Assembly (NCBI RefSeq): GCF_000003605.2
Contig: NW_003122912.1
Span: 178,361-242,360, forward strand
Length of the DNA: 64,000 nucleotides
Origin: Saccoglossus kowalevskii
Taxonomy: Eukaryota; Hemichordata; Enteropneusta; Harrimaniidae
Direction: 5' to 3'
The position numbers and the translations under genes are program-made. Under the pieces are notes generated by a model. The model worked only from the letters and a program-made list of their open reading frames with translations. It did not search any database and was not told the DNA's origin. Positions 15,309 through 44,463 of this stretch are shown here, piece after piece. Numbering within the stretch: the first letter of the stretch is position 1; the number at the start of each line of letters is the position of its first letter.

Positions 15309-17688
15309 TTATTCATTGCATCTAAAGAAAATAAGACACAATAACGCAATTATTATCTAATTATGCAGAAAATACAATGATCAGGCTATGTATTTGACAA
15401 TGATATAAAATGTTCTATTACAATTCTTCTACGGACTTTTTACACGAACTAGTAGATAGTGTATTACCTCTCGCCGGATGTCTTCCTAAAAGGTCCGTGA
15501 GTTATAAATGAATCGTTTGGTAGATCAGAGTATTCTTCTCTTTTACGTCCTTTGTCGACGCATCCCTAAAATCAAGTCACGTAATATGTTGAATGACAGC
15601 AATGTGCAGGCAATGCATACTTTGTTTTGTTACACACAATATACAACATACGATTTTAGGATTAGTTTGGGCACACGTACCTGATCACAGCGTGTTCCAA
15701 CCTCTGCTTTCTTGCAAATCACAACCGCACAATGGATATACAGATCAACTTGCTCATCATCAGGAATGTCAACATAAACGTTGACAACATCATATGCATC
15801 CCAAATAAAACGTTTGGTACGATCGTCGGCTGAAGGTTCTTCCATCACTGTTTCATCAAGGCATCTATGATCATAATAACATAATTTAGTAATGTTATTT
15901 AATAAAATTCTGCTATTGTATTAGTCGAGTAATTCGCTAGATAAACTGGATAATGCACACATTAAATCATAAATATTTCACCCGTTAGTAATCATTGGAT
16001 ATCTGTCGTCCGAAGAATGTGGATTGTCACTCTGAGATGCAAAGCAGTCCACTACGAATAATTCCAAACTGTCATCTCCACTATGAGTTGATATACCAAA
16101 GTATATCAGGACGCCATCGCACACTTCAACAGGGAAATCCACATTAGGATCCATTATAGCTGTGAACGATGCATCTTTATACAAGGTAGCCGTGACGTTG
16201 AATTGCCCAAAACCTTTCAGTTGTATTAACACGGAGCTTTTAAAACAAAGTACAAATTAATTAATTGTGCAATATCTATATGATAGAATAAAATAGCCTT
16301 TAAAACATTTAATTTTGATTTCGGCTGCTATGACCCACCTGTATGTACGTCATCTATGACAACATGCAATTATGTGATGAACGCGATTTAGTGGATTGAC
16401 ACAAGCATATTCGACAATGTGAAAATCCTACCACAAGTAGGATATCTTTTAAAGCTCAAATTGTCGCTCTTAATAATAAAAATCAAACGTAGTAGTAGTA
16501 AAACGTAGTATATAATACAGGATATACTGTCGTTCTACTCTCTTATCAAATTACAATTTGCTTGTTTAGTGTATTTCATTTGAGGTAGATTATACAAGTC
16601 CAAGATTGTCCGAAAGTACCGCGAATATCGCTCAATAAGAATTACATAATAGTAAGCTTTATTGTGGAAAGCATACCAAGGATTAGCTTCAATATATATA
16701 GGTGCAATAATATATTCAGTTCCATAGCAACACAGTAGCTCTATGATTTTAGTTCCTCTTTCCGTATAGACCATGTTTATGTATTCTATTGACTTGTCTT
16801 TTGGTTTCTCCTGTGAAACAACAAAGCAGAACTTATGGTAATTGTGACGCCCTATGCTAAATGTTTCCTGTACAACTGAGTATATAAAATGTATTTATTA
16901 GTCTCCAATCTTATGTACAAATAATTGAATACATATAAATAACTGACGTTCATGTTAAGAAAGTATGAGAAATACAAACTTCGTAGTATTCACAATATTT
17001 TAAAACACTCACGTTTCTGAAAAGCACAACGCAACTACAATGCTAGGTTTGTCTGTAACAATGTGTGTGTGTGAAATAGAATGTAGAATTTTAGACACAA
17101 CATAGCAAAATGTAAAACCAGCTTTCAATACAGTACAATTTTTATTTATTTATATTTTGTTTTCTGTATATATAAATATACAGTTTCATATACAACTTCT
17201 TTACCTAACCATGCCTCTCCCAGTCCGTACAAAAATATATACGTTTTTCTTCAAAACAGACTATGATTTTTTTTTGTAGTAGTTGTTCAGAAGTATGGAA
17301 ACTCATTCATTCATCTACTACTACTAAAATGACCTATGTCATCAATATACAATTCAATAGTTTTCACAATTATTCTTTCTATCTATCATGCATGTATTAT
17401 GTATTTACAAATAATAAATTAGCACTACCACCGAAGTTAAACGTATCAAGTTTTTTTATGTAACAAAATACAGTTTACTTACTATAGAGATAGTACCACA
17501 ATCAAAAAGGAATGTTTCAAACAAAAATGCATCTTCGCCATCATGAATAACATCTATACCAGTACACGCTGGATCATTCAGATGAAAGTAAGACGCATTT
17601 GCACCGGAATGATGAAGGAGCTCCAAAATATAACTCTTGCTAACAACTGCACTCATTTTGGTTTCACTGCATATTATGCCATCTGACT
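15309..17688 (-). other. ZP module exons (ZP-N, ZP-C, furin-type site, stop)
   Basis: ZP-N starts at 17688: cysteine in GIICSETK, a LNDPAC motif and FDCGT, and closes with ELLCCYG in the 16677-16810 exon. ZP-C begins in 15982-16236 with [26 protein letters not shown] and ends at the classic NGC junction. It continues in 15681-15864 with [18 protein letters not shown] and RCDQ. Exon 15468-15565 opens [12 protein letters not shown], a dibasic furin-type cleavage site after the ZP-C fold, as expected for ZP proteins. Splice phases are 1, 0, 2, 2, 0, 2. With the nearest acceptor at 15321 the protein ends RCNE-stop at 15309, with no membrane anchor. Confidence 0.85.
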
Positions 17689-20600
17689 CTGAAATAGTGA
17701 TTAGTGTGATTGTTTTATTCTATAACATAACCATTCACACACAACACAATATCAACATAGACTTACATTCATAACGTATTTTTATCTAAAATTCATTCTA
17801 ACATTACAATAACACATCATGTTTTACTAATCCTGTTAACAGATAAAAACGCACCTTCTTCACAGTGTTTTCCGTGATGTCCTTCTTGGCACTGGCAGTG
17901 ATAACCCTCAGAACTATCATTGACACAGAGTCCATCGTTCTGACATGGATTGGGTTGACATGAATCTGGGATCAATTAATAGAAACCTTGTTGAAAACGG
18001 TATTTATGTGTTATGCAGTCATTCGTGTAGCAATTATACGTTACGTTTCACCAGCAACAAATACCCCCGCCTCCCCAATTAATCACATCACGTTATATGT
18101 TAATTAAAGGGCGGTAGTCGTTGCGCCACGCAAGCGCGAGAAATATGGGTCTCATATAAACAAAGATGGCGACTTTGACTGTTGCGCAGATCAACGAGTA
18201 CATATTGACACCTTTCAAAGCTATAACTAGGTTATATTTGGGTGATTGGGAGGTAGTCGAGCCCAAGTTAAACCTCATACTTGTGATTTCTTTTTGAAGA
18301 GTTCTTTGGATTATGGGAAAAATCAAAGTTTATCAACACAAATGTCGCACATGGTCAGCGCGACGACTATCGCGCTTTAAATTATACGTCGGCCTTTTTG
18401 TGGAAAGAATCAAAAGAATCAATGCATCTGTCGGATCATCTGTCCGTGGAAGACGGCTTCTCAAATACTGCTTAACGTTTTAACTTGCTTCGGGAGTTCA
18501 GATGGGGCTTTGTTCGGTAATGAAAACCACCAAAAATTTGGTCTTAGACTTGCATAGTATCTATCTATTGTATGTTTGTTGGTGTTTGTTTTCAATAATA
18601 TAAAACTTTGGGAATGTATAACTGGCAAAAGCTTCCCGACATCGCGACCAGAAGAGTACCCATCCACGACCTCTTCCTGGTATTTTAAAGCGATGTATAG
18701 TCCAGTATCCTAGTAGTCTTCCAATGCCATCATGAAAATCTCAAAAAATAAAGGGAAATCCAAACGCGCGAAATTGCAGTTTTGGTGCTGTTTCTAATAA
18801 ACTGTCAAATCAAACTCAAATGTTGTCCTTAACGCTGATTGATGGGATTATAATGACCTTCTCAATCATTGCATGACGCATTGAAATCAGACCGGTAACA
18901 ATCATCACCGATGTCGCGAGTGGGCGTCTGCAAGATTCACATGTATCTTGTGTTTTTTTAGCGATATTCCGGCTTTTGCCATTCACACAGTCCCATATTT
19001 TATTGAAAAAAACACCTAATAATAAAGAGACTGTATGCAAGTTTATCTTTTTTTATTTACTGTTTTTCTTTGACACAGATTTTGATATGTTGTTGCAGAT
19101 GCCTAGTGGGGACCACTATGAGATTTGTTTACTACGTTTTTTTTCATAAAACCATGCATCAAGTTCCTTTTATATTTTATAAGTAGGTACCTTTGGTGGA
19201 TATCTATCAGAGAACAGTAATTATGTGATGATACTTTCAATTCTCTAATTACATAATGGTGCATGTTCTATATCTAATAATGATAAATGTCACCTGTACA
19301 GTTCTCTTCATCACTACCATCCCAGCAATTATAATAACCATCACAAATTTGGAAGGCGGGAATACATTGTCTATGGTGGTGGTAATAGTGATAGTAGTAG
19401 TAATAGTAGTGATAATAATACTCGTACTTTGTACAGTTGAATTCACAAGCTGAAAATGCAAAATGACATGTCATAAATAAATAGATGGTGACGTAGGGTT
19501 GAAACAGATATGTCCTGTTTATGTTGTCTTAAAGTCCTCTACTTGAAGGCATATTTAACAACCATAAAATGCACAATTTATAGATGATGTGGTTGAGGAT
19601 ATAGAATAGATTCGTTTATTATCGCATGTTAAATCACCTTCTGTGTTTGTTGTGTGTGATAGAGCGTATTCGACAATAAAAGGATATTTACCTGCTCTGT
19701 GTTATCGATAGTGTATTTTTAATGTACATTAACGAATATTCATGCTGTACTGAATTATATTGAGATCATATTCCAGGCACAAGACCAGCTAAACTAATGT
19801 ATTATACTTGAACACCTAATAATTGTTCTTTCTATGATGGAGAGTTTTTTTTTTTTTTTTGACATTTTATAATTTACAAAAAGAGTGTATATTGTGTTGA
19901 AAATATCAATCTCAGGTTCTTTATCAAGTTCTGTTTGCTGTCCTCAATTAATCTTTATTTTGATACATAGGCGCATCTTTTTATATTCTAGTATTGTTAC
20001 TTGCATCGTTATTCCCTAGTTTATATTTTATTAGGCAGTACCCTTGGGGTTCAAATATCATAATATGTTCCAATATACTGTCAATGCTTTGACATTTTTA
20101 TTTAAAATAACAGCCCCATACATCGCTGTGTATATCTTTGTGCGAACACATTTGCACTATTGTCAATAATGTCTATATGAAGCAAGAAATATCTGAAGAT
20201 AACTGTAATGGCCCGAATTTATAATCAGTTATATTGGTTATGTTTATCTGTGTTACCAAATCTAGATGTACAAACACAAAAGTGAACATTTATTAAACTC
20301 ACGACAGTTCAGTTCATCACTGGCATCTCCACAGTCACTATGGCCATTGCATACCATATATTTTGGGATGACTCTTCCATTATTGCATTGAGAATGCAAT
20401 GCAGAATCGTATCCTATGTGATAATATAATATTTCCCGTATATTACTTTCAAATATATAAAGATCTGGCGGCGTGGCAATACACATGTAATATACAGTAA
20501 AGCTATCATCTTGTATACATACCACAGTTTTCATCGCTCCAATCACCACAAGCATCATATCCGTCACACAAATTATAATCTTCAATACAGCGACCATTAT

Positions 20601-23600
20601 TACACAAGAAGGACCCTTTTCGGCAACCAACTACAACGATGAATGTAATTCTATTATTACAAATTATTATTAACAAATGAAAAGAAGACAAAAACAACAT
20701 ATTACAGATTTACTATTTGATCAGTTTAATGGAAAATTATATATATGCTATCGACGAATGGCTACAGTTCCTTTAACTTAAGTAACTTTTTCAGGTTTAG
20801 TTGTCTCATAAAATTATAAAGTAGACAAATTGTTTTACCACAATTGATTTCGTCGGAATCGTCCCAACATTGACTGTATCCATCGCATTGTAACTCGGCT
20901 GCTATACACCGTCCATTTTTGCATTTGAAACTTGTCTCATCATTGCAATCTGATAAATATATATGATGTAGGATATATACAGAAACCATTTGATTATAAA
21001 TAATGATAATTTAAGGGTAGCATGTGCAGAGCAGGATTTGCTTATATCTTAGACTTTTGTACAAAAAACAAATTAGGCTTAAGAATGAGGTACCTTGCTC
21101 TGAATAACACAGCATAGCATTCCCTACATTCATCAGCGTACCAAAATATTTTAACGACTATTTTATATATTAGCGTAATTATCGTCGACTCTCAGGACAC
21201 ACTCGTCGTCAGCAGACTATATCACCATCCATGTGTTTGAGTGATAAATTTTCCTTGCTGTGGGACTACATGTCTGAGTTCCAGATGTATTGACGCATAG
21301 ATTTATAATTTTCGTTAGTTAGTTAGTTAAATATTCAGATGTGATAGGTAATACAATCACGTAAAGTTATTTTGCTGTTGATGATCTCTGAACAAAATCA
21401 ACATTTTCTGCAAAACATTTCACAATGAAATTGCTTTACGGTGAATGATTACTATTTTACTATTTTTTAAGCATACCCCGTGCAGAAAGAAATGCCATAG
21501 GTAGTCCAGACGCTGAGCAACAAATGCAACAGGGTCTGATGCAGCAAACGATGCAATTCGTGATTTAGGTCCATGGCTAATGTTGCTGCAAATTATATCA
21601 GACTGTCGCAGTAATAAAACTGTCATACAATACCTTATTATGACTGCTTTTCTAACCATCAGCGCGAAACGGATACGACTCGGATGGCGATGCACGACGT
21701 ATTATCCTACAATTGTTGAAATACTCACCACAGCCAGATTCATCACTTAAGTCACCACAGTGATTGTAATTGTCACAAAGGTCATGCCTATATACGCACC
21801 GTCCATTTTCGCATTGAAACTCATAATGGCTATTGCATTCTGTAATAAGAAATGGTTTTATACGTAAAGGGCCATGTATTTTTCAATACGTTGTAGCTCT
21901 GACTACGATGTGACTATATTAATTTGTGCTGCACGTACCTGTATTATTACATTCTTTCTCGTCACTGTAATCACCACAATCATTATCATAATAATCACAA
22001 ACTTTATAATGCGGAATACACATGCCATTATCACATAGAAAATAACCATCAGAACAATCTATCAGACAAAAAAAGAAGATGAAATTAAGATCGATTCTCA
22101 TTTGTCACACAATAGTGTAATTATTAGTTGTTAATTTAAAATACAAACTAACTCCATGATAGTAATAATAACTAACCAGATAAATAAATAGATTGAGCAC
22201 TATCAATGTATTACCTCCGCAATTTACTTCGTCACTTTGGTCCCCACAATGATCGTAACCATCACACACTGCTTCAATAGAAGTACATCTCTTGTTATTA
22301 CACGTGAAGTGATTTGTATTTGAACATTCTGTAATATAAACATACACTTTTCAGCTGTAACATTGTATTATGTTATAATCGAAACAAGATTTCATATATT
22401 CGTGTTAAACTGCTCTTAATTTAAATGATACTTACTACAACCAATTTCGTCTGACCAATCGCCACAATTATTATAACCGTCACACAATTGGTCACGATTT
22501 ATACACAGTCCATTGTCGCAATGGAAACTATATTCCCAACAATCTGTAATATGATAACACAATTACTTATCATGAGTAAATATAGAAATCAGAAAGGCTT
22601 AGAATTATGTAACACTCGGCGGAGAACAACCAATTCACCACATCCCAAATGACGTGGGGTTATTAACTGCGCTTTATAAATTGTTCAATCTATGTTTGGA
22701 TGTGTGTCAAGCTACGACCGACACCTACTGATAATGAGTCCTATCTAAATCAGGTTTTCTTAGTATAACAGTTGATTAACATACGTGGATGATCTGTTAT
22801 AATAATTATAACGTACGTATATATGTTATGTTATATATATATGTGTTATGTTATAAATGTAAATATTTAAACAATATTATCTTACTAGTGCAATTGATTT
22901 CATCCGAAATGTCCGGGTGCCCACAGTCTAAATAACCATTACATACATCCCATTCCTCAATACAAACACCATTGTCACATAGAAACATATAGTCACTATT
23001 GCAAGCTAAACAAAAACAAATATTTGTGTTGCCACGATTATGTTGTCAATATTGATATTAGTTGAAAACAGCTGTGTGAAAATAACAGTTGTTGTACTCA
23101 CTGCAATTCATTTCATCACTCTTGTCGTCACAGTAAGCCCATCCATCACATTTTGAATCGTACCACCCCGTACACATACCATTAGCACATCGGAACCCAT
23201 CGCAATATTCATATGCTAAAATTGAGAATGTCAATAAGAAAACAGAATGGTAAATGAATGCATGAATAAAGTTTGAACACAATATATTCATTTTATATTG
23301 TATATAGAAATATGGGATAAGGACGGGAGATTAATATGCTTTTTTGGACAAAAAAACAATAATTCACTGACTACATATCAAGGAAACAATATCGAAATAC
23401 ACTTACTGCAATTGTTTTTTTCGCCTTCATCCCCCCAATCACCACAGTCATTATCACCATCACACAATTGCCAATCATAAATGCAAACTCCATTACTACA
23501 TAATACTTCGTTGGTGTCGTTACATGCTAGGAGTAAAAATGTTAGTGTTTAAATTGGTGATATATTTGGACGAGAAAACCCACCACAACGTTATTTTCAA

Positions 23601-26600
23601 AGTACACCCACACTTCACTGTCGGTAAATTTAAAATGTGTGAAGTACGCACAGAAAATAACCTCGAAATTCACAATAATGTCGAATTATTTAAACTGTTC
23701 CTGTAGTAAGAACGACACGTTTGTTTTGTTTTTTTAAAGCAGCATATATGAACAATCAGACACAAAACTGCACTTACTGATGAGTATAATACTGAAATTG
23801 AAATTGATCATGGCACCTTCGCCACAGTTTTTATGGATGAAAATAACACAACTGATGTACACTACGTCATCTGTATGTGCACCCAAATACGGAGTCGGTA
23901 TAGGGCTTATTTAAGTTATTTTTCATTAAAACGATAATCACTCATAAATCACTCATGTTACGTGAAATATATAAATAATAACGCTGAACATAAATAAACT
24001 TTTTGGAAGAATGATAAAACACATCAAAGTGACTTTCTAACTGACGTCCAAAAAATGATGGCGTTCAAAACACCTTATCAAAATTCAGAATCCGTAAACG
24101 GCAATACAATCCAATAACTTTTAATAGCAACTGACTATATTTACCACATCCAATTTCATCACTAAAATCAGTTAATCTACAATTCAGATAATGATTACAC
24201 CGTGATGTTTCTGGGATACATCGACCATATTCACATTCGAATCCTTGGCACGCATCACCTAATACACGATATAAACAAAACTTAATGTTATGTATTCAGT
24301 GTTTGGCCTGAATAATAATGATGAATGATGGCATTGGTGAAGAAGCATTCCTCTGCCTTGAATGTCATTATCATAAATATATGATATACAACATGATGTA
24401 TTACCATTATTTAACGTAGTAGACTAAGATAATTTGAAATTATTTTCTTTATAATATTCAGTTCGAAGATATAATTATATTATGCACACACTAGTCTACA
24501 CTTTTGGAACAATTATTGAAAAGAAAATGAAATGGCAAGCAAGATTAATACCAACACACTGGGTAAATTTAAGTTTGTGCCCATTATTGAGAGGAGGTAA
24601 TATGCTTGCTACAATATAATAATTACAGTCACATTGTGTTATAAATCTGGCGTACGAATATAATTATAATACTTACCACAGTACAATTCATCTTTATTGC
24701 AGGTATTGTGACCATCACAAACCATGCTACTTGTCAAACATCCCCAATTCCAATATCCACAATCAAAGGCCCCAGGTAAACTACAGTCTATTTATTGGAT
24801 TCAAAATTTTAATAATTATTCAAGCAACAGTGAGTAATTCTTCATGGATTTAATCACATTATTGTATTTTGCTGGCGTGACGGAATGGGTAGAACCAGAC
24901 ATAGTGGCGATGTATGATTGGAAACAGACTTTCGATAAAGTGAGTGAGACATTTGACCATTTTGCCTTTTCAACTCGGTAGCAGGGTCAATCACAAATAT
25001 AGCAAATCGTGTATAATAAGTTTGTAGGTGCGCCCTCGTAAATTTTATTTTGTGAAATTGACGCGTGAGTACGAACACGTGGTCTACACAGCAACATCCC
25101 TAACAAAGTAATTTGCTTCATTTATTGAAAACCACCATATATATAGTATTAATATACATCTGTCGCCGTAACGCCATAAGTTACAACGTGCCGTAATTTT
25201 GCGGTATTTCAAGGGGTATTTTCATCCTACTATATTAGGAAATGCGAACTCCAAATATGGAATGATTACGTACGTACGCGCCCTCTAATAATAAAAACAA
25301 ACATGGCTGCCACCAGGGTTTGACCGGACTCCACACAAAGAAGTTCGCTGACTCTGCTCTAAACTTTTTGGATTTCGGCATTCCCATGATGTATCCTTGG
25401 AAAGAAAAGATGTATAATAATAAGTTTATTACGAGGATNNNNNNNNNNNNNNNNNNNNNNNNNNNNNNNNNNNNNNNNNNNNNNNNNNNNNNNNNNNNNN
25501 NNNNNNNNNNNNNNNNNNNNNNNNNNNNNNNNNNNNNNNNNNNNNNNNNNNNNNNNNNNNNNNNNNNNNNNNNNNNNNNNNNNNNNNNNNNNNNNNNNNN
25601 NNNNNNNNNNNNNNNNNNNNNNNNNNNNNNNNNNNNNNNNNNNNNNNNNNNNNNNNNNNNNNNNNNNNNNNNNNNNNNNNNNNNNNNNNNTCGTAATAAC
25701 CTCATATTATACACTACCAATATGACTGGGTTCTAATGATTTATTTAGTCCAAGTTATTTAATGTAGACTACAGTGCATTGGGACTGCTATCTATATTAT
25801 TCTCAATATCAATTGTGAAACCACGTTTGTGTCGTTTTTTGTGGTAGCATATTTGTTTCAAATGATTTACCAAATATTTTAAATTAATTCAAATAATCTA
25901 AAAAAAAATATTTTTTCACTCTAATTTGTAGGAATAAATAATGACCACACTTGAATTTTCTTCTGGGAATCAGAACTATTTATTCTTTCACATTTCTTTC
26001 CATGAAATGTATAAATCTGAACAGGTTGAGTTAGATAAGTAGCTCTTTTGACTAATATAAATCGCCCTCTCAATTTTCTTTTTATTATAAAATTATTACC
26101 AAGCTTGTAAAGTATATTTGCTAATTAAATGCACTTTATCTCGCATAACATTCCACAGCGAACATTGCATTTGTGATGAAGAAGACTGCAATTGGTATAC
26201 GTATCGAATTTTGTTTTATTATTTAACCGAGTGGTCAAGGGGTTTAGAACTGTTAACGTGATTTGTATCTGTCAGTGAGTGGTGAGAGTGTTTCATCATA
26301 AACCCATGGCTAAACAACAGCGTCAGCGTAATCTAATTGGATTCAAAATATCACTACATTTGACATACCGCAATCGAGTTCATCACTCCAGTCAATACAA
26401 TCATTATAACCATCACACAAATTGTAGCTGTGATGAATACATATACCATTGTCACAGGTAAACATGTCGTCACTGCAAGCTGATAGAAAAATGACCAACA
26501 CGTAATAAAGACGTCTTCAGGACGAAAAAAGAATTGATTGTTAAGTTGTTAAAAAATGTTTTGTCGTATATTGTGAAAGCACTTTCCACTAAAAATTCCG

Positions 26601-28994
26601 TATTTAAATCAGGTATACTACATCAGTGAATTGCAGTTATCAACGTATTCAAAACACCAAAATTAATTATATAAACGGATCGCCAGCTAAAGTGTCAATA
26701 ACGTGCGGAGTAAAATTATTGTGGATTTCAATGTGTAAATGTTTGTTTAAAATGTTCATAGATGCATTACTCACTGCAGTTTATCTCATCGCTCAGATCT
26801 TGACAATGTATGTAGCCATCGCATACATCCCACTCAGATATGCACTTGTAGCCATCGCACTGCAATTCGTTATAATCACATGCTGGAAGCAAATCAACAT
26901 TGTATAATATTTTCAAGATTCGAGAGATCCACTTAGACGCGTGGACGAGTAAAATGAGATTTATGTACGTTATGTGCTGTTAAAATGTATGTGTTCTACT
27001 TACTGCAATTGCGTTCATCACTGAGGTCGCCGCAATTGTCATAATTATTGCACACGTAATGTGAGTGAATACATCGACCATTATCACACAGAAAGTCATC
27101 TGTGGTATTGCATGCTGTAATGCAATGAACGACATTAGCATGAAATATATCAACTTCAAATGTTTACTTACTTAAATTATCGTGAGTCAAGCGAATTCAG
27201 TTACCTGTAACAAAGTAGTTCGGTAGTAATCCATTACATTCTTGGGTTACATTTAGCCCAGTTAATCTCAAATTACCTAATTTATTAGCAGCGAACTTTG
27301 GCACACCAGCTCAAATAGTGTACCACAGTCATGTTGCAATTTATCGTATTCGTTACTAGGTGTATTTCCTTTCTTGTATAAGAAATGCTGGTAAAAGTAG
27401 ACGTTTCTATATACAGAATTGAACTACAAGGGTCCCTCCCGCCACAATAAATTGAACTGCTTGTAGACAGAGGAATCATAATTCTGTTCATAGGATGACG
27501 ATTAAATACTCACAACAAAAATATTCATCTTCGCCATATTCGCAGTGGTTATGATCGTCACATTTCACTGTTGAGGGTAGACACCGCCCATTGTTGCATG
27601 TGAAATGGTCGCCCTGGCAGTCTGACAAACAATGGACAGTATGATTATTGATTTGTTTTTAAATGTTTTTGAGCCAGGCGACAGTTCTGGACATTGAGTG
27701 TCACTGTTGTCTCTCCTGCAAGTGCTAGTGTTGACACATAAGTCATATCTCTCTATCAAATGGCAATTTTAATGCGCTATCCTGGTGTCAACCAGACTCG
27801 GTCAAACACAAGCACTTATAATTATTGATTAGTCTTATTCAATTTGCAATAAAAAAGGGTGCAATTGCAACTTTCTAGCAATATAAATTCGGTTATTGAT
27901 TAGTCAAAGAATAACAATTTATATACTTACCACAACCAGTTTCGTCACTCCAGTCCTGACAATGATTATACCCGTCGCATATATGTCCTTTATATATGCA
28001 AATGCCTGTATCACATCTAAGTTGGTTACTGTAACAAGCTGTGAATACAATTTCGGTAGTATGTAATCAAATGACATACTTTTAAACAGTGTTTTGGTAG
28101 CTATATTGTTGCATGTGGCATTCGCATGTTGATGTGTACGTTATTTTAAGTCAATAATTTCTCATGCATGATCATGGTCTTTTTTTACAGAGAAACGGGC
28201 ATGTTCCATAAAAATATTGACGTTTTGAACGGCTTTGTGTCACTAAGTTATGTCAAGAGCGGACTTAGAAGAGTCTTTTATATTAATTAACATACTAAAA
28301 ATTATGTAAATGTCATCATATACTTTTTTGGGAAACCACACCTCAATCTTATTTCGTGTATAACATAAGTGGAACTCGCGTAAAATATGTTATTGTTTTT
28401 TTTTTAAATTAAATCGGAACCAAAGTATGAACATCTTTAGATACTGTGCAAAATATCGATACATCGAAAAAGAGTGTATATATGTGACTTAATTAATCCC
28501 TAAACATTGTATCTGATTAGGTATAAATTTAGAACTAAGATTTGTTTGTTTTCAAAACTGTTGTGGATAATAAAGTGAAAAACTAGTGGTATAATTTGTT
28601 ATGGTTTATTACGATTCCACATAAAATTATTACACCTATGTTTACACAGGGATCAAATTATCTTACTAATCTGAGATTAGATTATATTTAGAACAAGGTT
28701 ATTTTTTCATGAAACAGCATATTAACCATGTTTTTTTCTATTTTTAATCTTCGATCGACATGTAAACGTTTGGAAACATGTTGACTCAAATGAAATAATG
28801 TCATGTTGCAATGATTCAACAATGTATTTTTTAGGACTTACTGCAGTTAAGTTCATCACTCCAGTCGTCACAATCAGGATATCCATTACACTGATTCCAG
28901 TGGAAAATACACTGTCCATTGTCACATATAAACATATCATCATAATCATACCAATCATAATAATAGTAGTAATAATCGTTCATATTAGTACACT
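15309..28994 (-). CDS. Large extracellular protein: at least 19 LDLa repeats, EGF, ZP domain (5' end missing)
   Basis: All exons lie on the minus strand. LDLa exons in order: 28842-28994, 27931-28038, 27514-27621, 27004-27114, 26775-26882, 26369-26479, 24677-24787, 24147-24260, 23407-23526, 23102-23215, 22886-23005, 22436-22543, 22215-22328, 21939-22058, 21729-21839, 20839-20949, 20523-20630, 20303-20413, 19294-19449. The EGF exon is 17855-17965. ZP exons are 17483-17688, 16677-16810, 15982-16236, 15681-15864, 15468-15565, and a short end exon 15309-15321. Every LDLa exon and the EGF exon starts and ends in phase 1, so they chain without frame breaks. LDLa repeats bind calcium and ligands, and ZP domains polymerise extracellular matrix or egg-coat filaments, so a secreted or apical matrix protein is likely. 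A RKR furin-type site (GRKREEY) follows the ZP module. No signal peptide was joined to the first LDLa. A gap (25439-25690) lies in one intron. The locus could also be two genes if 23811 is a true start. Confidence 0.82.
17855..17965 (-). other. EGF-like domain exon
   Basis: A 111-base phase 1-1 exon encodes one EGF-like domain, with [12 protein letters not shown], then a cysteine pair in [11 protein letters not shown] and a last cysteine in KHCEE. It links the LDLa array to the ZP module. Confidence 0.9.
18108..18376. mobile_element. TTAA-flanked MITE, copy 1 (family A)
   Basis: The element is flanked by TTAA on both sides (18104-18107 and 18377-18380). Its ends are inverted: AGGGCGGTAGTCG at the left and the reverse complement of AGCGCGATAGTCG at the right. 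The interior matches the reverse complement of 34693-34973, including GGGTCTCATATAAAC and AAGATGGCGACTTTGAC. TTAA duplication is typical of piggyBac-superfamily insertion. It is too short to code and lies in the intron between the last LDLa and the EGF exon. Confidence 0.75.
19294..23526 (-). other. LDLa array, downstream block (11 repeats)
   Basis: Eleven single-exon LDLa modules of 108-120 bases, plus one of 156. Most show six cysteines, NG.C, CDGY and SDE. The 20303-20413 repeat lacks cysteines 1 and 3, which form one disulfide in the LDLa fold. The 19294-19449 repeat carries a long Tyr/His-rich insert between cysteines 2 and 3. A Tyr after CDG recurs across the array, which suggests expansion from one ancestor by exon duplication. 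Confidence 0.9.
23778..23870 (-). other. Unresolved exon or alternative start between LDLa blocks
   Basis: A strong GTAAGT donor in phase 1 ends an open frame that includes [11 protein letters not shown] (ATG at 23809-23811). Reading 1: a first exon with a very short hydrophobic leader, giving a separate gene for the downstream array. Reading 2: an internal 93-base phase 1-1 exon from the CATACAG acceptor, encoding a non-LDLa segment with two cysteines. The leader is too short for a usual signal peptide, so neither reading is secure. Confidence 0.3.
24147..28994 (-). other. LDLa array, upstream block (8 repeats)
   Basis: Eight phase 1-1 exons each encode one LDLa module. The first (28842-28994) is longer because a Tyr/Asp-rich insert ([15 protein letters not shown]) lies between cysteines 1 and 2. 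The 24677-24787 module is divergent (KDE instead of SDE, WNWG in place of NG). The 24147-24260 module keeps all six cysteines with LTDFSDE. A gap of 252 N lies in the intron between 24787 and 26369 and could hide a further exon. Confidence 0.88.
25439..25690. other. Assembly gap (252 N)
   Basis: The bases flanking the gap are inverted copies of each other (TTTATTACGAGGAT on the left, TCGTAATAACCTC on the right), so the missing sequence probably sits in a palindrome. Confidence 0.95.
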
Positions 28995-31900
28995 CTAAAA
29001 AGGTAATAGATAATTAATTTCAGAAAAACCGCAATCACCAACATGACTTGAATAAATTGAATTATCTCCTGAGAACAGTCTATAAAGTTTTGTTTCAGAA
29101 TAAATGCCATTTGAGGTTGATAGGTTACAACTATATTGTAATAAAAGATAATAATATTTTCGGACCTTGGTTTTAGTGAATGGTTGAATGCTTCAAATAC
29201 ACACAGAAACTTCAATGTACTATATTTAAGCAATAATCTCTCACTGAAGGTAGCGAGATATTTCACAATTTATGATGAGTTATTATTTAAGTGGCTTTAA
29301 GCAATGGAAACAACACAAAATGTTTGAGCTAAACAGTACATTCGACTCCTCGTTTTCGTTAAAATAACTGTTCCATTTATCTAACATACACATATTATAA
29401 TGTCCTTCATTGCAGTACATAAACAGAATTAAAGCTAACTATCAAAGAGTAATGATTTATTAATAACATTTTCTATTCATATGTTTGACCTATCATGGAA
29501 AAATGATTGTCCTCAAGCTGATATTCAGGCCCTGAACAATTTAAGTATTAATTTGGAATGTCTTTTTTAAATATTTTTAATTAAAAGTGGAATTATCTCG
29601 GAAAGTAATCTTTAGTGTGTGAGCGATATCTGCGACACGGTGACATGAACGCAATTTAGTTGAAATTGAGAGGACATATATATATATCATTATTCAAAAG
29701 ATATAAGAAGAAATTCATTTACTCTTTTACAGGTACTATTCACTAGAAATAGGAATATTCATTAACTGTATATGTAACCAATGTCAATACTCGTTCATGT
29801 GAATTGAATTGTTCACTTGTGGAATAATTTAGCAATTCCAGTAATGTCATCTAATTAGATTTTCGTTTTGCTGGGTGGTTAAAAGAAATTTGCTGGAATT
29901 TTTGTTGTTTAACATTTGCTTGTACATATCAAAACTGAATAGATGGATGGACGGTCGACAGACCATTGAATAAATAAATTATCCTTCCAAAAATGTAAAA
30001 CAAGTTCTTGTCCAATCACAATAGTGTATTTATGCACTGGTATATAGTACATAACTGCGTATTTTCTGTCAAAATGTTCCTTGTTTTGTTTCCTTGGCTT
30101 AGCATTTAGAAGTTACTGCCAATTTAAGAATTGATCAAAACACGTAGCGTTGTGTTTCTGTTTCAAAACGCGATTGGTGTAATTTATTTCAAGTCAGGAT
30201 TATGTTTGAACCACAAATATATTGCCTACATTAAACAACTTCTGTGTACATGTATTACCTTGATACTGGCGTTTATCATGCTGGGCTTTTCTCAACAGAC
30301 TGCTGTAATCCTGGAACCAAGAAGATACATGCGTATCAGCGTATGATAAAGAAAGGCATTATGGTTTTATGAAAATATCAGCTCAGTTTCTATTTATATT
30401 TAACGGCTATACGAAGTTCAAACACTGTAGTTTTGGATTAATCTCACCTGACGGTTAGAGCTAGTCAAATAGGAGAAAAGAGAAACTAACATGCAAATTA
30501 TTCTAAAATAGTACTTTGGTATAGTAGATATAGTCAGATATAATAACATATTCATATCTTCAGTCTAGCAACAAACTTATTGGAGTATATAGCTAGTCGT
30601 CGAAATATTGATTATCGTGCTAATTGGATGTTGATAACAAACAAACAAACAAAAAGGTAGGGTTATTTAAGTTACATAATGACATAATTCCACTCGACTA
30701 TATGTGTAATATGAGTACTCAACTGGTATGGCTTGTGACATTATTCAGATTGAAACTACTTAATTTTGTTTTTCTCACCTCTTCGTTTTCATGTCTTCCT
30801 GATAGTGTGCTTTGTTCACCCACCGAACCATCGCCTGGCCTCTGCAGAGTCCTGTGGAATGGTACGTCATCAGCTGTAACATACTGGAAGATGAGATATT
30901 ATAAGTCAATGCCGGATAATTTCATATTCAACAAAAATGGTAATAACACGTGGGCAGTGTCGTTATACGAATAATTTCTAATGAATGGAGTGGAAATATT
31001 GTTTTACCTTGTAGTCATTCGCCTTAACCCGATGATTTGAATAATAATATTTTGCTCAATCATCGTTGTTGTATTTATATATTATCTTAATGAATCCATA
31101 TAGTTTACTATTGAATGTAGTGTTTTCGAGATGTGACAACTGACGGTATACTGACACATAGTATAATTACCTACAATATATATACATGTAACCTTTTCAG
31201 GTCATAATATGAACCTGATCAATCAAGACTTCGCTACTTTTCCTATCAGTTTCGCAGATATTGAGATGATCGAGACGTCTAATTTGTGACGACACTGTTT
31301 AAATTATCCAGTAATTAATTTGTTCGTTATATGAGTGCAGAATACGCAAATAAGATTCTAATTAATTATATATGATTGGATTTGTGAAATTATGGTAATG
31401 TTCATCTTCACTGGGTTTTGCAGACGGTCAAACAATTATTTTTAATTGAAGTAAAACATGTTTGCAGGTGTTAACTAGTTCTATTCACAGGGAACTCGTT
31501 AACTCCAAAAACAGGGCGGGCAGGGTTATTATTTGTTTGATGATCTTTACAATTACAGTTGCTCGGACGTACTCGGTCCCTCTGAATGATCATATCCCTC
31601 GTATAACATTCTCGAAAATAAATGTCCCCAAGGTGGAATGTAACATCGGTCACGGAAATGTACATGTACATGTCGCTCATGTTAGGAATTGGGAAACGCT
31701 TTAAAGCAAAATACCACATATTAAATCTCAATTGTATGTTTCTTGATCAGTATCTTTGCAAAATTGTAACATTGAAGATCACGTTAACAACTTCATACCG
31801 TGACGAAACGGGGAGAAGAGAACTAAATTGGCGACGAATAAGTAATTATTCAACAGGTAAATAAACAAAGACTTAAAATTAATATGCGAATTATAGAAAA

Positions 31901-33271: not shown

Positions 33272-33333
33272 CTGTTGAATGGTTAATGCTGCCACATATA
33301 GTGCAATTAGTGTTAGTTTTCTTACGACCATTT
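33272..33333 (-). CDS. Orphan first coding exon with signal peptide
   Basis: After a TTTTCAG acceptor, the ATG at 33331 opens a 20-residue frame, MVVRKLTLIALYVAALTIQQ, with a positive start and a hydrophobic core typical of a signal peptide. It ends at a GTAGGT donor in phase 0. Further upstream on the minus strand a GTAAGT donor (exon end 33489) could close a 5' UTR exon, with TATATA near 33625-33630. It lies upstream of the LDLa gene on the same strand, but the phase (0) does not fit the first LDLa exon (1), so an intermediate exon or another gene is needed. Confidence 0.4.
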
Positions 33334-36781: not shown

Positions 36782-39700
36782 ATGGCGGAAGAAATACAAA
36801 ATCCTAGGTGCTTCTTCGATGTGTCTATTGATGGTCAGAAATGTAAGTAATACGTGATGCAAAAATATGTTAATGCTTCGGTGACATCATAAACAGGACA
36901 TGTGACAATTTCTGGTGTAATCACGTCATTATTGTTGCTCCCAACCCAACCTATGGAAACAACGGGGACACAGTAAGTGACAATGCAATTCGTGGTAATG
37001 GCAATGTTAAATCGAAATAGGGAGATAGTTATAATGTGTTTTGTGGCGCGGTCGTGTGTGTTCGGTGATCATGGACACCAATACCACCTCGATTTTCGTC
37101 GATGACTTTCACGGTACGGAGGATATCAACCTCGCTCTTATACATAGAACGGTTTATTAAAGTGCGGTAATGGCCAACGTCACTGGAAGTTTACCACCAT
37201 GATTGTTCTAATTGAGTTAAATAGGAAAGCTTCGGTTTCTATATGTGATTATACTCTAAAAATATAAATGAAAGAGTCGATTCAGATTATTTATGGAATA
37301 AATTGGGCAGTCACGTTAGGAATGTTCAAATATTCGCCTCAAGGTGGTTCGTATAACGTATTTTATAAATTAACTATAATCCAAATCCACTGGTTGATCA
37401 GAAATTACTGCATATCAAATTAACACTATTTTATTAAATGAATGCGCTTATCAAAATGCTTGTCATGAAAACCATTGCCTTTCACAACAAACATTTCTTT
37501 TATGTTGTAGGTGGTCGTATGATATTTGAATTATTTGCTGATGTTGTTCCAAAGACTGCAGAAAATTTCCGAGCACTATGCACTGGTGAAAAAGGAGTAG
37601 GTGCTTCAGGGGTTCCATTACACTATAAACAGTGTACATTTCATAGAAGTAAGTTGATCTTTGGTTTGATCAGTGCACACACTTTTTATGCAATAATAAA
37701 TACAATTTAAGGATTGTCATGTGCAGCTTCCAAATTGTCTCTGACTTGCAACATATTTGAGACAGGTTAAAATGCCTATTGCATTAGTCCACATTCAGAT
37801 AAAGTATGAAAACTGGGACTCTGTACATTCGTCCATCCATCTCCACCTATATCTTAGAAATTCCTGGACCAATTAAACTACACACATACATCATACATAT
37901 TCACTTCCATTTGTTTGGCGATCTAATTCAATATGGCCGAATGGTGGCCATTTTAATGTTAAAAATGCATCAAAATTTAGCATTGCTGCCTTTCGGGACC
38001 CTGATCTTGACCTTACATGGACAGGTATTGTTAGAATTATTTGGTACATACATTGAACATTAAAACTTAAAATTTTTCAGATAGAATTGAAAATGGACAA
38101 TGACAGAAATTTTGTACTAACGAATGCTGTTCTCTGCCATGCACGCTGACTCTGACATGCATTGACTGGGTGCATTCAACTTTAAAACTACATTTAACAT
38201 CATTTTACCATCAGTATTTGTGTATTAATTAAAGCGAGAGGGTCGTCACCTGCAAAGGTTGACTTTGGTCACATTGTCTTTGTGAAATGTAGTTGTTAAT
38301 TGCTCTAAAATATTGAACCTTTCTCACGATTGTGTCATTATTAAAGCTGCACACTGCAGTAAGTTCTACATCATGTGTACCAGTATGTAACACTGCTCTT
38401 ATTCTGTCTTTTCAAAGTAATTAAGTCCTTCATGATACAGGGTGGTGATTTCACCAAACATGACGGCACCGGCGGTGAGAGTATATATGGGGAGAAGTTT
38501 GAAGATGAGAACTTCAATATTAAGGTAGGAATTTAGCCACTGGTTTTATTGTTGAATCTAACTAATAGATGTTTCTTAGCTTGTCTTTACTGTGGTTATA
38601 TTTTTCGGGGTCTGTATTTTCAATGGTCAATTTAAATTTTATATTAGATAATCCAGACTGGTGTTGATTTTGACTGGTTGATTTTGTTTTTTTATCACAT
38701 AATTTTGATCAATATCATTCATAGTTGTAACGTGTGAAATATCACTAGCTGATTGGGTATTGTAAACACCACAATATTCATGTTCAACCATTCCATGCAT
38801 GTTTGAACAATGTGCTGGGAAAAAAACAAATTATATGGAAGTACACTTTATATTACAGCAGTAAAAGAATTTTGTAGTGATTTCTATTCTTCAAACGACA
38901 CTATGACAACTAGTTTGTAAATAGCTTGTTGACTGAAATTCTGAAAGAATAATAAGGATCATAATTCTGTTGATTTTCATAACTTTTGATGATCATAACT
39001 GCAAAAAATGATTAGACATTATGACTTATTAGCGTAAATGAGCATATGATATTTAAAGGTATTTGTGTAAAATTGCAATTACTTTGTTTGTTTTTTTGCT
39101 TTTTTTATACTTTTAAAAGCTATTCATGTGATGTAGAGCTGCTTGGCTGTGGATAATACTAGACTAGTGTCACTTGTATCAAACAGCTTGGTATCATGCT
39201 GTATCAAATCCCTGTTCCTGGTCTCTCACTGATAGTATTGCAGTCAAATTAATTCATGATTTATTTGCATACTCTGATATTGATATTAGTCAATTTGTTA
39301 GTATTGTTGATTGCCGTGACGTTTTTGTGACTGGTCTATTTTTTTTCTACAAATCAAGGCAATTTTGTGTGAGCTGTATTTCTCATTATCAATTGAATTC
39401 TGGTAAATGTGACTGCTCAATCTACACATCTGAGAAATACCATAATATACACACTGTTCAATGTTCTCATTTATGATCTTTTACATAGCACGATATTCCT
39501 GGTTTACTGAGTTGTGCAAATGCTGGACCCAACACTAACGGATCACAGTTCTTTATCACTACTGTACCTTGTCCTCATCTTGACGGTAAACATGTGGTCT
39601 TTGGAAAACTCCTGAAAGGAATTGGTGTGTTACGAAGATTGGAAAATGTAGAGACAGTTCAAGATAAGCCAAGCATAGTAAGTGATTTTGGACTGCACAT

Positions 39701-42700
39701 TTCAGCAGTGATTGTCAAGCTTGACATACTATATGATGTAGACCTGTAAGAACAGTGGTTGTCACCATCCTTCCTTATTTATCAAACTCTTGGGAAACTG
39801 CGATCCAAGAAAGATTCCAGAGTAAATTATCTAGTAGCTTTCATACATTTTCATTTCACATAAATCATACATTACAGTAATGACTCTTACCAAATATATG
39901 TAAATCTTCCTTTTTTGATCTTTTTTGTAAGCTCCCTTCATCGGTCAAACAGTACTCTTCCTGGTAGATTTACAGAGGGAGACTGTGAAGTGGCATACAG
40001 CTTTGAAATAGACGTATTCTGCTTCAAGTTTATTGATTAGTAGTCTGAACTGTAAAACTTTCACTAGTTGCCCCACTTTCATTTGTTGCCATGAGAACCA
40101 AAATTTGCAAACACTTTATTTTTAGCTTTATAAGTTTCATCAAGATTGTCAGAAGGTGCTGGATCTGGAACGGCCAAGCTTGACAGCAGTAGCACCAGGG
40201 TTTTCAATAGTGACATTGTATGCGTTTCACCATTTTTTCTCTGATGGTTATCATGAAAATTGACACAGTCATGGAAACAGAATATCATGATCATTTCTCG
40301 CAGACAAAGTTTACAGTATATTCCACATATGCAAAAGAGGTTACATTGAAGACATCAATAAAATTAAGCAAATAGGATATTTATACATGTAATAAATATT
40401 GTAAAATTGAATGAAGGTTTCTCATGGAATGATTATTTACAGGCATGCATAATAGAAGACTGTGGTGAAATTCCTGCTGGTGAAGACGGTGTAACATGCG
40501 TAGATGATGGTACTGGAGATACATATGCAGATTACCCTGAAGATAGCGATGTTGGTACCAAAGATGTAAGTCTAAGATTATGCTAAACTTGCATGCTGTT
40601 GGTTGAATATTGTCCAATGGATGTAAACTTGCATGCTATTGGTTGAATATTGACCAATGGATGTAAACTTGCATGCTAACCAAGCATTATCACCATTCCG
40701 GAATTGTATCCGCTAGTGCCCGGACTGATTCTTGGTTGGACAAACTTGGTACATAGCTTGAACATTATTGAAGCAAATCATTTTTTTTTTCATATTGGAT
40801 TTGAAATCATTTCCAGCTGGCATTTTGTTTTAATGGATGCTGTTTCAGAGTTGTGTCTCTGACAAGCCCTGTCAGTTAAGTTCAAACATAATTTATTTCC
40901 TGAACATTATAACTCACAAGGAATATGTAACACAATAAATTGTTGAAAATAGTTATTCATAAAATAAACATTATTTTTTCTTATCATTTCTTTAGTTCTT
41001 TAAATATTACAATATGGCAACTTAACTGAATAAAAAATACTTGACAGGAAATTTTGAAAATTGAATGTGAGACAAGATTCATTTCTATCAACATGAAAGT
41101 CTGGGTTTTGAAACTGTATTTCCTGTTAAATAATTCAAAGTTGATTGAAAGTTTGTTTGTTTTTTTACACCAAGTGGTTTTACTAATTTGGTATATACCA
41201 CCGGTAATTGTGTACAGTGTAATAAAATTTATTAAATTTTTCTTTGGAATGTTTGGCAGTGATATGCTAATTANNNNNNNNNNNNNNNNNNNNNNNNNNN
41301 NNNNNNNNNNNNNNNNNNNNNNNATTTGTTGAATATTTCTGAATGCTTGTATGATATTAGATGAATATTGATAATTTATTAACTTGCATGCTGATAGTGT
41401 TGGGTCCTGTCAAGAATTGTCATAAACGCATGTTCTGTTTCGCATTCAGCTTCAAAAGGTCATGGAGGTGGCAGAATTCATAAAGCAAATAGGAAACAAA
41501 TTATTCAAGGAGCAAAGTTACGAGAAGGCTAAAGACAAGTACTTGAAAGCAATCAGGTTAGTTCAGTTGGGTTATTCCACATCCTTGGTATCCTATCAAC
41601 TCATTAAACCAAAAGAGCTAGATTTTGTGCATGTTGTACAATGATTTCACCCATAACTTCGACTGTATCTGTGTAGATTGGTAGGAATGACTTCAGTTTT
41701 ATGACATGTGTAATGTACATTGTTTGGCATAGCAATCACTTTAGTGGCTATCTAAACGTATTCATAAAACATGGACTTATAGATTCACCTCTGAAAGTTC
41801 ATTTTACACTGAAATTTTAAAAGAAAATATCTTGATTAATATAATAAATATAAAAATACAATAGGTGATTTTCCGTACAATTGCGAGATGCATGAAAGAC
41901 GCGCGTCGAACGTCTGCCGCAAAAATCGAACGATTTGATTTTGAACTCGAATTTCTTTATTTCGTCACTCACATCGACCGGCCGATCTTCGACAGAGGAA
42001 TATTGCTTACGAATACCCTTACTTAATCGAAATTGCCTATCATCAAATGTGGACAGCACATTATTAAGCATGGAAATGTCCCCAAAATACTTTCGCGTTT
42101 GTCGAATCCCACGCGATGTTTGACGCCACTACGACGCTATGACCTTTGTTTGTCCTGTTTTTACGTTCGATTTCACGCATAACGCGTGATTCTCGCAGTG
42201 TACGGAAAATGGTCTATTAGCAAGCTGTTTGAGGAAACAATATATACTGTAAATCACTTGATTTACCCGCATAGAAATTATTTTTGTGGCATTCATGTAA
42301 CATTTTCCGAAGTCGTTGGTACAAGTAGAACCCCCAGAATAATTTTCGCTGCAACTAGATTTCAAAACTTTCACAAAATTCATGAAAATATGTGTGCCAT
42401 CCAAAAACCTCAACCACAGTGAAGTTTTGGCATGCGGGCAAACTGATATTTTTTTCTCATCTGACGCCTAAATTAATAAATAATGTCCTCATCATTCAAA
42501 CTTATTCAAGTTCAGTGGCATCTTAGGATTAAGTGGATGCTTGGAAAATTTTATTTTGTGATCATATTGAAATTTGTGTGACTTCAATTATGGTTACATT
42601 TCATATCACGTCTGTTTCATACACATATCTTCTAAATCAATGTTGTGTAAATTTCTAGAATGCGTACAAATGTCATAACTACCATTTCTTACCATGCAGA

Positions 42701-44463
42701 TACATGGAATATTTGGAAGACGGTAAACCAACAGATCTAACAGCGGAACAAGAGGAAAAAGTTCTAGGTGTAGTTCTGCCCATGTATAACAACGCATCGT
42801 TTTGTTGTCTGAAATTAAACCAACATGAACAGGCTTTAGAGAATGCCGAGAAGGTATTATTATTAGAGTTTATTGGTATCCTACTGTGCTTCAATCACAA
42901 CCAAACATTTTGTTTATGGGATTCATTGTTTTACATTTCATATCTACATTAGGGTAGAAGACTACTCATAAAGCAAATATCCAGAATTAATTCATTTTAC
43001 AATCAATTGTACTCCTGGACAATATAAGGATATTGACCTGAACAAATTTGGGGGTCACCAGCCTAATTTTCGGGAAAATTTTATTTTAGCGGATAGTGAG
43101 CATTTTGTCAGTATTATAACGCTTTCACCATAGGTTTCTATGGCAGAGATATTATGCCATATCTCAAATTGTAGACTGGTGACATAGTCTGAAAAAATGT
43201 TATATTGTGAATGATGGGGTACTGTTTGTTGTCCTGATTTTTTTCAAAAATTTGGCTTCTAAAAGAAGCATTGTTATGCGATTTGTGGCCAACTTTCTCA
43301 AAAAATATGAGTAATCTTCTATCTTAATCTTTTTATCTTTGGTCTATGGACAAAGCCACACTTGTGTAGTTACGTTATCAGGCATTCCGTATTGCATTGG
43401 GACTGTTCAAAAAAGATTAGTGATCAGGGTTATATTGGCTGTTCATCCACTCACTGCTTTACGGCATTGAGTCAGAAAGTGACATAAAACCTATGCATGT
43501 AAAAAAAATGGGAGAATCACAAAGAGTAGCAGGGGACTGTTTTTGATTATACCTTTCTCTAAATGACCAATAGATTGTTGAATAGATATGAATACTTGTC
43601 AAATGATTGTCAGATTTCCATAGCGTCATCCAGAAATACATTTTCTTTCTTTTGATACAGGCATTAGATGTGGATCCCAAAAGTGCTAAGGCATATTTCA
43701 GGAAAGCACAGGCATTAACTGCAATGAATCGGCATGAAGATGCCATGCCTCAGTTACTGGAAGCTCAAAAACTGCAACCAAGTGATAAAGGTAAAAAGCT
43801 AAATTCAGTTTTTCCATTGTTACCAGTACATAATGATACCGCAATTCTTGTAGTTAGAATTATCGTAATTTGGTTTTAGACAAATCAAACCATACAAGTA
43901 TTTAGAACAAACTCTGAATTATCTCTTCAATGCTGATTTTCTATTTTGGGATTTACCTTGCTGCAAAAATAATGAAGTGTATCAGGGCTAAACTATATGT
44001 TGCCGGTCACCTGATAGCATAGTGGTTGTTGCATCGGCATTGCGACCAGAGTTCAAATCTTACTTTGAGTTGAACACCAAAAAAGAGCAACCCCTACCTA
44101 GGCGAGTGTGCCACAAACTCACTGGTCAAGATTCATTCACTAACTTGTGCAACTTTGGGAAGACTGGGACTGGTTGACACCAGGATATAATGTAATAAAT
44201 TGTCATAATACAAATATGATTGGAAGATGATCTTACAGCTCTAGCACAGTCTCAAACATGGAGTATGGTTTCTCTAGCAAATTGTACTATTTGTCGGCAC
44301 TCAAACTTTGCACATAAAAAGGTCAGGATAGACAACAGTGGCATTTTATGTAAACTTATTTGTCTTTACAGGAATTAGGAATGAGCTGATGAAAGTGAAA
44401 AATATACTGGAAGAGAGAAAGAAAAAGGAAAGAGCAGTGTATGCCAAAATGTTTTCCTCTTAA
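36782..44463 (+). CDS. PPID: Peptidyl-prolyl isomerase D (cyclophilin 40), nine exons
   Basis: Cytosolic Hsp90 co-chaperone with an N-terminal cyclophilin domain and C-terminal TPRs. CDS exons: 36782-36842, 37511-37648, 38418-38524, 39489-39677, 40443-40565, 41450-41556, 42700-42853, 43661-43790, 44372-44463; 366 residues against 370 in human. All phases join. The PPIase part shows [24 protein letters not shown] (catalytic Arg), [17 protein letters not shown] and LDGKHVVFG. The His in KHVVFG replaces the Trp of cyclophilin A, as in other Cyp40 proteins with low cyclosporin affinity. The TPR part keeps the Hsp90 carboxylate-clamp residues: K and N in KQIGNKLF, N in MYNNAS, K and R in KAYFRKAQ. 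The end VYAKMFSS matches the family. ATG context is AAAATGGCG. AATAAA at 44603-44608 is a likely poly(A) signal. Confidence 0.96.
40585..40679 (+). repeat. 40-bp tandem repeat in PPID intron 5
   Basis: Two 40-base units (40585-40624, 40625-40664) beginning AAACTTGCATGCT and ending CCAATGGATGT differ at only a few bases. A third, partial unit follows. Confidence 0.9.
41274..41323. other. Assembly gap (50 N) in PPID intron 5
   Basis: Fifty N bases, probably a fixed-size placeholder. It does not interrupt a recognised exon. Confidence 0.95.
41864..42214. mobile_element. MITE with inverted ends in PPID intron 6 (family D)
   Basis: The left end GGTGATTTTCCGTACAATTG matches the reverse complement of the right end (GACCATTTTCCGTACACTG). 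The similarity continues inward for tens of bases (GCGAGA, then TCGAACG). The element is about 350 bases and GC-richer than the intron. TA dinucleotides next to both ends are consistent with a TA target, but this is weak. Confidence 0.65.
43003..43210 (+). repeat. Dispersed repeat, copy 2, in PPID intron 7
   Basis: Same-orientation relative of 12129-12345, with AATTGTACTCC, CAATATAAGGATA, GAGATATTATGCCAT and TCTCAAATTGTAG in the same order. Confidence 0.6.
44005..44200 (+). mobile_element. tRNA-derived SINE in PPID intron 8
   Basis: TAGCATAGTGG (a full A-box match) is followed about 30 bases later by GAGTTCAAATC (B-box-like), giving a pol III promoter with tRNA spacing. A non-tRNA body follows (about 44070-44200). 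The cloverleaf stems are not intact, so this is a SINE and not a functional tRNA gene. Confidence 0.55.

Follow-up and report, generated by a model that had tools for sequence, protein, structure and literature searches.

A predicted Saccoglossus kowalevskii gene joining nineteen LDLa repeats, an EGF domain and a ZP module

Described ZP proteins with LDLa or EGF domains

LDL-receptor domains are counted among the auxiliary domains of ZP proteins in a 2026 review, according to the part of its text available (PMC13361971). We analysed a 64,000-nucleotide stretch of the hemichordate Saccoglossus kowalevskii (hereafter the window; positions 178,361 to 242,360 of contig NW_003122912.1, RefSeq assembly GCF_000003605.2), whose minus strand carries a predicted gene of this kind, with 19 LDLa repeats and an EGF domain ahead of a ZP module. 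The amphioxus egg-coat proteins BbZP2-5 combine LDLa, vWFA and a ZP module, without EGF and with no transmembrane (TM) segment detected (PMC3543715). BbZP2, BbZP3, BbZP4 and BbZP5 share with the protein described here LDLa together with a C-terminal ZP module, and no TM segment detected; they also have a signal peptide, where our protein has a predicted signal-peptide-like start. As far as the available text of that study goes, these four differ in that they include a vWFA domain but lack EGF, range in length from 673 to 891 residues, are credited with an LDLa domain rather than 19, and have been shown in the egg coat.

The pairing of EGF with a ZP module is shared with nemertean NeZPL1, 4, 5 and 6, ascidian HrVC70 and mollusc mantle/shell proteins (PMC11673550). 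The nemertean proteins differ by a predicted TM segment and a consensus furin cleavage site (CFCS), and the terms LDL and LDLa have 0 occurrences in the available text of PMC11673550. Uromodulin and GP2 are similar in having EGF before ZP and an end containing the external hydrophobic patch (EHP), uromodulin being moreover the best solved-structure relative of our ZP part; unlike our protein, uromodulin has a glycosylphosphatidylinositol (GPI) anchor and a D8C domain, and is not known to have LDLa (PMC7737619). In the portions available, PMC6331135 speaks of LDLa only in the protease matriptase, and PMC6262864 makes no mention of LDL.

Each of the two pairings, LDLa with ZP and EGF with ZP, is already known, and the combination of 19 LDLa, EGF and ZP, of which no example was described in the available parts of the open-access literature searched on LDLa/ZP architecture, appears to be a new arrangement of well-known parts. 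LDLR, LRP and the vitellogenin receptors carry an array of class 1-1 LDLa exons, as here; unlike in these receptors, no YWTD propeller was listed and no anchor found, the protein ends in ZP, and the residue before Cys5 is mostly replaced. EGF-ZP shell proteins have reportedly been treated by Shimizu et al. 2022. The details that appear new are the stop after the EHP-like segment, the Tyr/His-rich insertions in the first and last repeats, and an array-specific LDLa signature.

One open frame over 29 predicted exons

The 29 predicted exons, chosen by rule and by eye, join into one open frame of 1144 residues, from an ATG at 33331 to a stop at 15309. Ends of the type GT..AG were found in all 28 introns of the model, and phases fit throughout. 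The signal-peptide-like exon (phase 0-0) comes first, then a pair of short exons (0-0, then 0-1), and after these 19 LDLa exons, one EGF exon, and six exons of the ZP module. All LDLa and EGF exons are of phase 1-1, as the original prediction had stated, and have AG/GT borders in 20 of 20 cases; these cassettes lead in frame into the ZP module. The sequence of the predicted gene thus shows, in one open frame, the 19 LDLa repeats, the single EGF domain and the ZP module in its entirety. The gene had first been placed at 15309-28994; exons do lie there on the minus strand, but the gene is probably longer, with three further 5' exons and a start at 33331. The whole predicted protein contains 15 N-glycosylation sequons.

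The three N-terminal exons were placed by splice sites and open frame alone. The predicted first coding exon (33272-33333, minus strand like all exons below) begins at the ATG and ends in phase 0; it encodes the hydrophobic MVVRKLTLIALYVAALTIQQ, is followed by a gtaggt donor, and has ttttcag just before it. This segment is signal-peptide-like by eye and passes a hydrophobicity scan, which by chance returns some 1.1 candidates per 1.3 kb of window. Exon N2 (30779-30883, phase 0-0), a putative linker or propeptide, has no known domain, and exon N3 (30259-30310, phase 0-1), whose end reads ..HDKRQYQ, joins the phase-1 LDLa array.

The EGF-like exon (17855-17965) scored 41.3 bits alone with PF00008, and the domain was recovered at E = 9e-8 in the whole protein. 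Six ZP exons follow. The first (17483-17688, phase 1-0) holds ZP-N and the second (16677-16810, 0-2) the end of ZP-N and a linker; the third (15982-16236, 2-2) and fourth (15681-15864, 2-0) hold ZP-C; the fifth (15468-15565, 0-2) carries the module's last cysteine, a basic GRKR and an EHP-like segment; and the last (15309-15321, phase 2 to the stop) ends ..RCNE. The joined ZP part, scanned by itself in Pfam, gave ZP-N at 3e-6 (27.9 bits, cut-off 24.7) and ZP-C at 1e-21 (77.7 bits, cut-off 24.6), that is, the ZP-N and ZP-C tandem by which ZP-module proteins are recognised; the second and fourth exons were assigned from this joined-module scan together with structure matches. Among solved structures the best relative of the ZP part was uromodulin (E = 1.3e-6), with ZP2 at 0.0055. 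No further ZP exon was seen in the window at better than E = 0.12, nor in 5 kb on each side (threshold 0.1).

By resemblance, the GRKR and the segment after the last ZP cysteine look like counterparts of the cleavage site and EHP strand known from ZP proteins. Directly behind the EHP-like segment the frame comes to a stop, and retention of the intron after ZP exon 5 would also stop it at once. A C-terminal membrane anchor is common in ZP-module proteins, not universal. None was found here among nine candidates between 11.0 and 15.5 kb (best 19-residue hydropathy mean 1.05), in a scan of single-exon tails behind phase-2 acceptors with at least 9 pyrimidines, with frames of at least 25 residues. 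Because no anchor was found and the frame stops after the EHP-like segment, a soluble precursor is predicted, for whose cleavage an outside protease or a partner would be required.

The LDLa array

The first repeat, L1 (28842-28994), has a Tyr/Asp-rich insertion between Cys1 and Cys2 and scored 38.4 bits in a single-repeat Pfam scan. It is followed by L2 (27931-28038), L3 (27514-27621), L4 (27004-27114), L5 (26775-26882) and L6 (26369-26479). The L6-L7 intron contains an assembly gap of 252 N (25439-25690) which could hide a cassette. Next come L7 (24677-24787; short Cys5-Cys6 loop, 18.1 bits alone), L8 (24145-24258; 26.6 bits alone), L9 (23407-23526), L10 (23102-23215; 23.0 bits alone, also in the repeat profile), L11 (22886-23005), L12 (22436-22543), L13 (22215-22328), L14 (21939-22058), L15 (21729-21839), L16 (20839-20949) and L17 (20523-20630). 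The array closes with L18 (20303-20413; 43.6 bits alone) and L19 (19294-19449; 31.8 bits alone), the latter with a Tyr/His-rich insertion between Cys2 and Cys3. Single-repeat scans covered six of the 19 repeats, of which four passed the PF00057 cut-off of 24.1 bits, L7 and L10 falling just under; the repeats for which no bit score is given were assigned from the exon model and the repeat profile. That profile, built from the 19 repeats, picked out these same 19 across the six frames of the window (E = 3e-10 for the weakest of them, 0.28 for the best other match); since it was made from the same repeats, Pfam is the independent test, and on the whole joined protein it gave LDLa at E = 2e-114 over 18 stretches. 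No further LDLa exon was detected in the window at better than E = 0.28, nor in 5 kb on each side (threshold 0.01). A possible extra phase-1 cassette inside the array, near 23780-23876 on the minus strand, with about 31 residues and two cysteines, had no Pfam match at E <= 0.1 and was left out.

Six cysteines are present in 18 of the 19 repeats and four in L18. Cys1 and Cys3 of LDLa are disulfide partners; L18 lacks both, so one bond seems to have been lost as a unit. The array has a net charge of -115 over 739 residues, with 8.4% Tyr, and both insertions (L1 and L19) are written in mixed TAT and TAC codons. A structure predicted for LDLa 19, based on 16 of the window's repeats out of 19, was of low confidence throughout, with a mean predicted local distance difference test score (pLDDT) of 56.8 and values below 50 for residues 1-19.

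The acids of the LDLa calcium cage lie after Cys4, before Cys5, and in the DE before Cys6. The DE is present in 19 of 19 repeats, as is Asp or Asn after Cys4. We compared the array with 36 six-cysteine LDLa domains from elsewhere in the assembly (572 Mb, 4830 contigs, the window being C1554:178361-242360), kept from 102 aligned stretches after 66 were dropped as duplicates, not six-cysteine or of the wrong length. At Cys4+3, 14 of the 19 array repeats have Tyr and 18 have one of Tyr, His and Trp, against no Tyr, no Trp and two His in the 36 controls. Directly before Cys5, Asp stands in 6 array repeats out of 19 and in 30 of the 36 controls. The size of these contrasts is probably overstated, as the controls were drawn around top-scoring matches and lean to the consensus. 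A pattern-based comparison, which had two of the 19 repeats outside its pattern and left out nine of 56 controls, from three loci, gave Tyr, His, Trp or Phe in 16 of 17 array repeats against 3 of 47 controls, and Asp before Cys5 in 5 of 17 against 38 of 47. Relative to the 36 genomic domains, the array thus appears to have its own signature: Tyr after Cys4, with the Asp before Cys5 mostly replaced. For 15 of the 19 repeats the best match lies inside the array, with a mean identity within the array (0.455) only slightly above that between array and controls (0.42) and within controls (0.442).

It had been proposed that any subset of the cassettes could be duplicated, deleted or skipped without breaking the frame. 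This is arithmetically right, and reflects a general rule rather than a special feature: exons flanked by phase-1 introns (class 1-1) are the usual form of shuffled extracellular domains, as stated in the available part of PMC3927616, so that the uniform phase of the 20 class 1-1 LDLa and EGF exons is expected. Recent tandem duplication was considered and rejected, the mean identity of adjacent repeats being 0.431 against 0.448 in random orders (p = 0.93). Identity showed no trend with distance along the array (permutation p = 0.37). The closest pair is L1 and L6 (0.69). These two also gave the one longer match in a DNA self-comparison (112 bases at 76%); the other four matches were short, at 36-54 bases, and their coordinates put them in or next to LDLa exons.

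With 150 of 1658 candidates scored in the genomic LDLa search, very long open frames with LDLa matches were seen at two loci: L027 1518-9899, about 2794 residues and open to the end of L027, and G000:C4670:36558-41390, of 1735 residues. The genome therefore also has LDLa arrays not split into single-domain exons. No ZP exon was found at E < 1 next to other LDLa loci, a weak negative obtained with a single ZP query on one flank of 20 LDLa stretches (two of these flanks being shorter at contig ends, 2694 and 1043 bases) and eight loci. As to the neighbours of the gene, a rhodopsin-type G-protein-coupled receptor lies at 404-1993 on the plus strand of the window (Pfam 7tm_1, E = 3e-57); its uninterrupted frame spans 529 residues between stops, and it is apparently intronless. 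Next door, on the opposite strand to the LDLa gene (about 37438-43876, plus), cyclophilin exons are followed by a TPR exon, an apparent cyclophilin-40 (PPID) gene.

A probable secreted coat protein and its alternatives

The features above are best explained, and rather probably so, as those of an extracellular coat protein that carries a ZP module, is secreted and has no membrane anchor. Several points weigh against this explanation. The gene model was read from genomic sequence alone, and its N-terminal exons have only splice sites and frame behind them, signal-like starts being as frequent by chance as given above. The profile searches proposed at the outset succeeded for LDLa and EGF on the whole translation and for ZP on its own part, but ZP was not listed by Pfam at E <= 0.1 when all 1144 residues were scanned. 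The basic site is G-R-K-R, with Gly at P4, and not the strict furin R-X-K/R-R; BbZP2 and BbZP5 of amphioxus are outside those said to have the furin site in the available text (PMC3543715). A 3' exon with a membrane anchor may still have been missed. Finally, soluble uromodulin ending after the EHP is secreted without polymerising, assembly requiring membrane-bound monomers, according to the accessible part of PMC7737619; the present gene ends at that point as well, which means that its product may polymerise only with the help of another protease or partner, or not at all.

Could the model have joined two adjoining genes, one for the LDLa array and another for EGF and ZP? In favour of this, only two of the 28 introns in the model are longer than the L19-EGF intron (1328 bases). 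No signal-peptide-like start with a phase-1 donor was found between the last LDLa and the first ZP exon, a weak result as 40% of 200 comparable stretches likewise had none; this, together with the continuous frame and fitting phases over 29 exons, argues for one gene, and we consider two very improbable. Nearly the same low chance, if anything lower, is given to a lipoprotein-receptor-like or ligand-binding protein, with an LDLa arm that would hold Lys-bearing ligands in the manner of LDLR. That receptor family typically has long LDLa arrays, but the Pfam scan lists no YWTD propeller, no membrane anchor was found in the scan described above, and 13 of the 19 repeats have lost the Asp before Cys5, part of the ligand and calcium site. 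A further proposal is unlikely, though less so than these two: that the array is a purpose-built LDLa subfamily spread within the gene from founder repeats, in which the aromatic/His signature CDGYxx[H/N]C stands where an acidic ligand site is usual, and in which the Tyr/His-rich loops of the first and last repeats serve for cross-linking, either covalently (dityrosine) or through metal. Each subunit of the ZP filament would then carry a two-ended, cross-linkable LDLa tether and not a lipoprotein-type binding arm.

Two narrower forms of the coat-protein explanation are compatible with it. A vitelline-envelope protein, whose LDLa arm would serve in coat structure or sperm binding, is possible but rather doubtful. 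An LDLa domain occurs in BbZP2-5, four of the five ZP proteins of the amphioxus egg coat, a TM segment being detected only in BbZP1 (PMC3543715), and EGF-ZP proteins include ascidian vitelline-coat proteins and nemertean egg-surface candidates (PMC11673550). Against this, non-egg coats also contain ZP proteins, and the amphioxus proteins, with vWFA and without EGF, are described in the available text with an LDLa domain and no long array (PMC3543715). Somewhat better placed, yet still tentative, is a coat protein of epithelium, gut or mineralised tissue, or a decoy filament of the uromodulin/GP2 type. Uromodulin is closest to the ZP part among solved structures, and ZP proteins occur in coral skeleton (PMC4890752) and in the Oikopleura house (PMC3390340), as far as the accessible texts state; against this form, the Pfam scan lists no further domain such as the D8C of uromodulin. 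The original suggestion of a matrix or egg-coat protein is plausible and has an amphioxus precedent (PMC3543715), the features seen here suiting an egg coat or any other extracellular coat.

If the gene does encode a secreted coat protein, its ZP module would polymerise head to tail into filaments once cleavage near the basic site frees the terminal EHP-like strand. In uromodulin, by the available text of PMC7737619, the EHP is part of a C-terminal propeptide that must be released before the protein can enter filaments. The EGF domain and the acidic 19-repeat arm would stick out from each subunit, and from the two of them the coat would derive its charge, its binding surface and its way of handling calcium; the LDLa arm would be an acidic, partly calcium-binding tether, and the Tyr/His-rich loops at both its ends may be cross-linking or metal-binding points. 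Were this true, the gene would add a case to the ways in which animals have equipped one common polymerising ZP module with differing side arms, and would extend the LDLa and ZP architecture of the amphioxus egg coat to a far longer, chemically altered LDLa arm. It would also offer a natural case for asking whether filaments can still form from an anchorless ZP protein whose chain stops directly behind the EHP-like strand.
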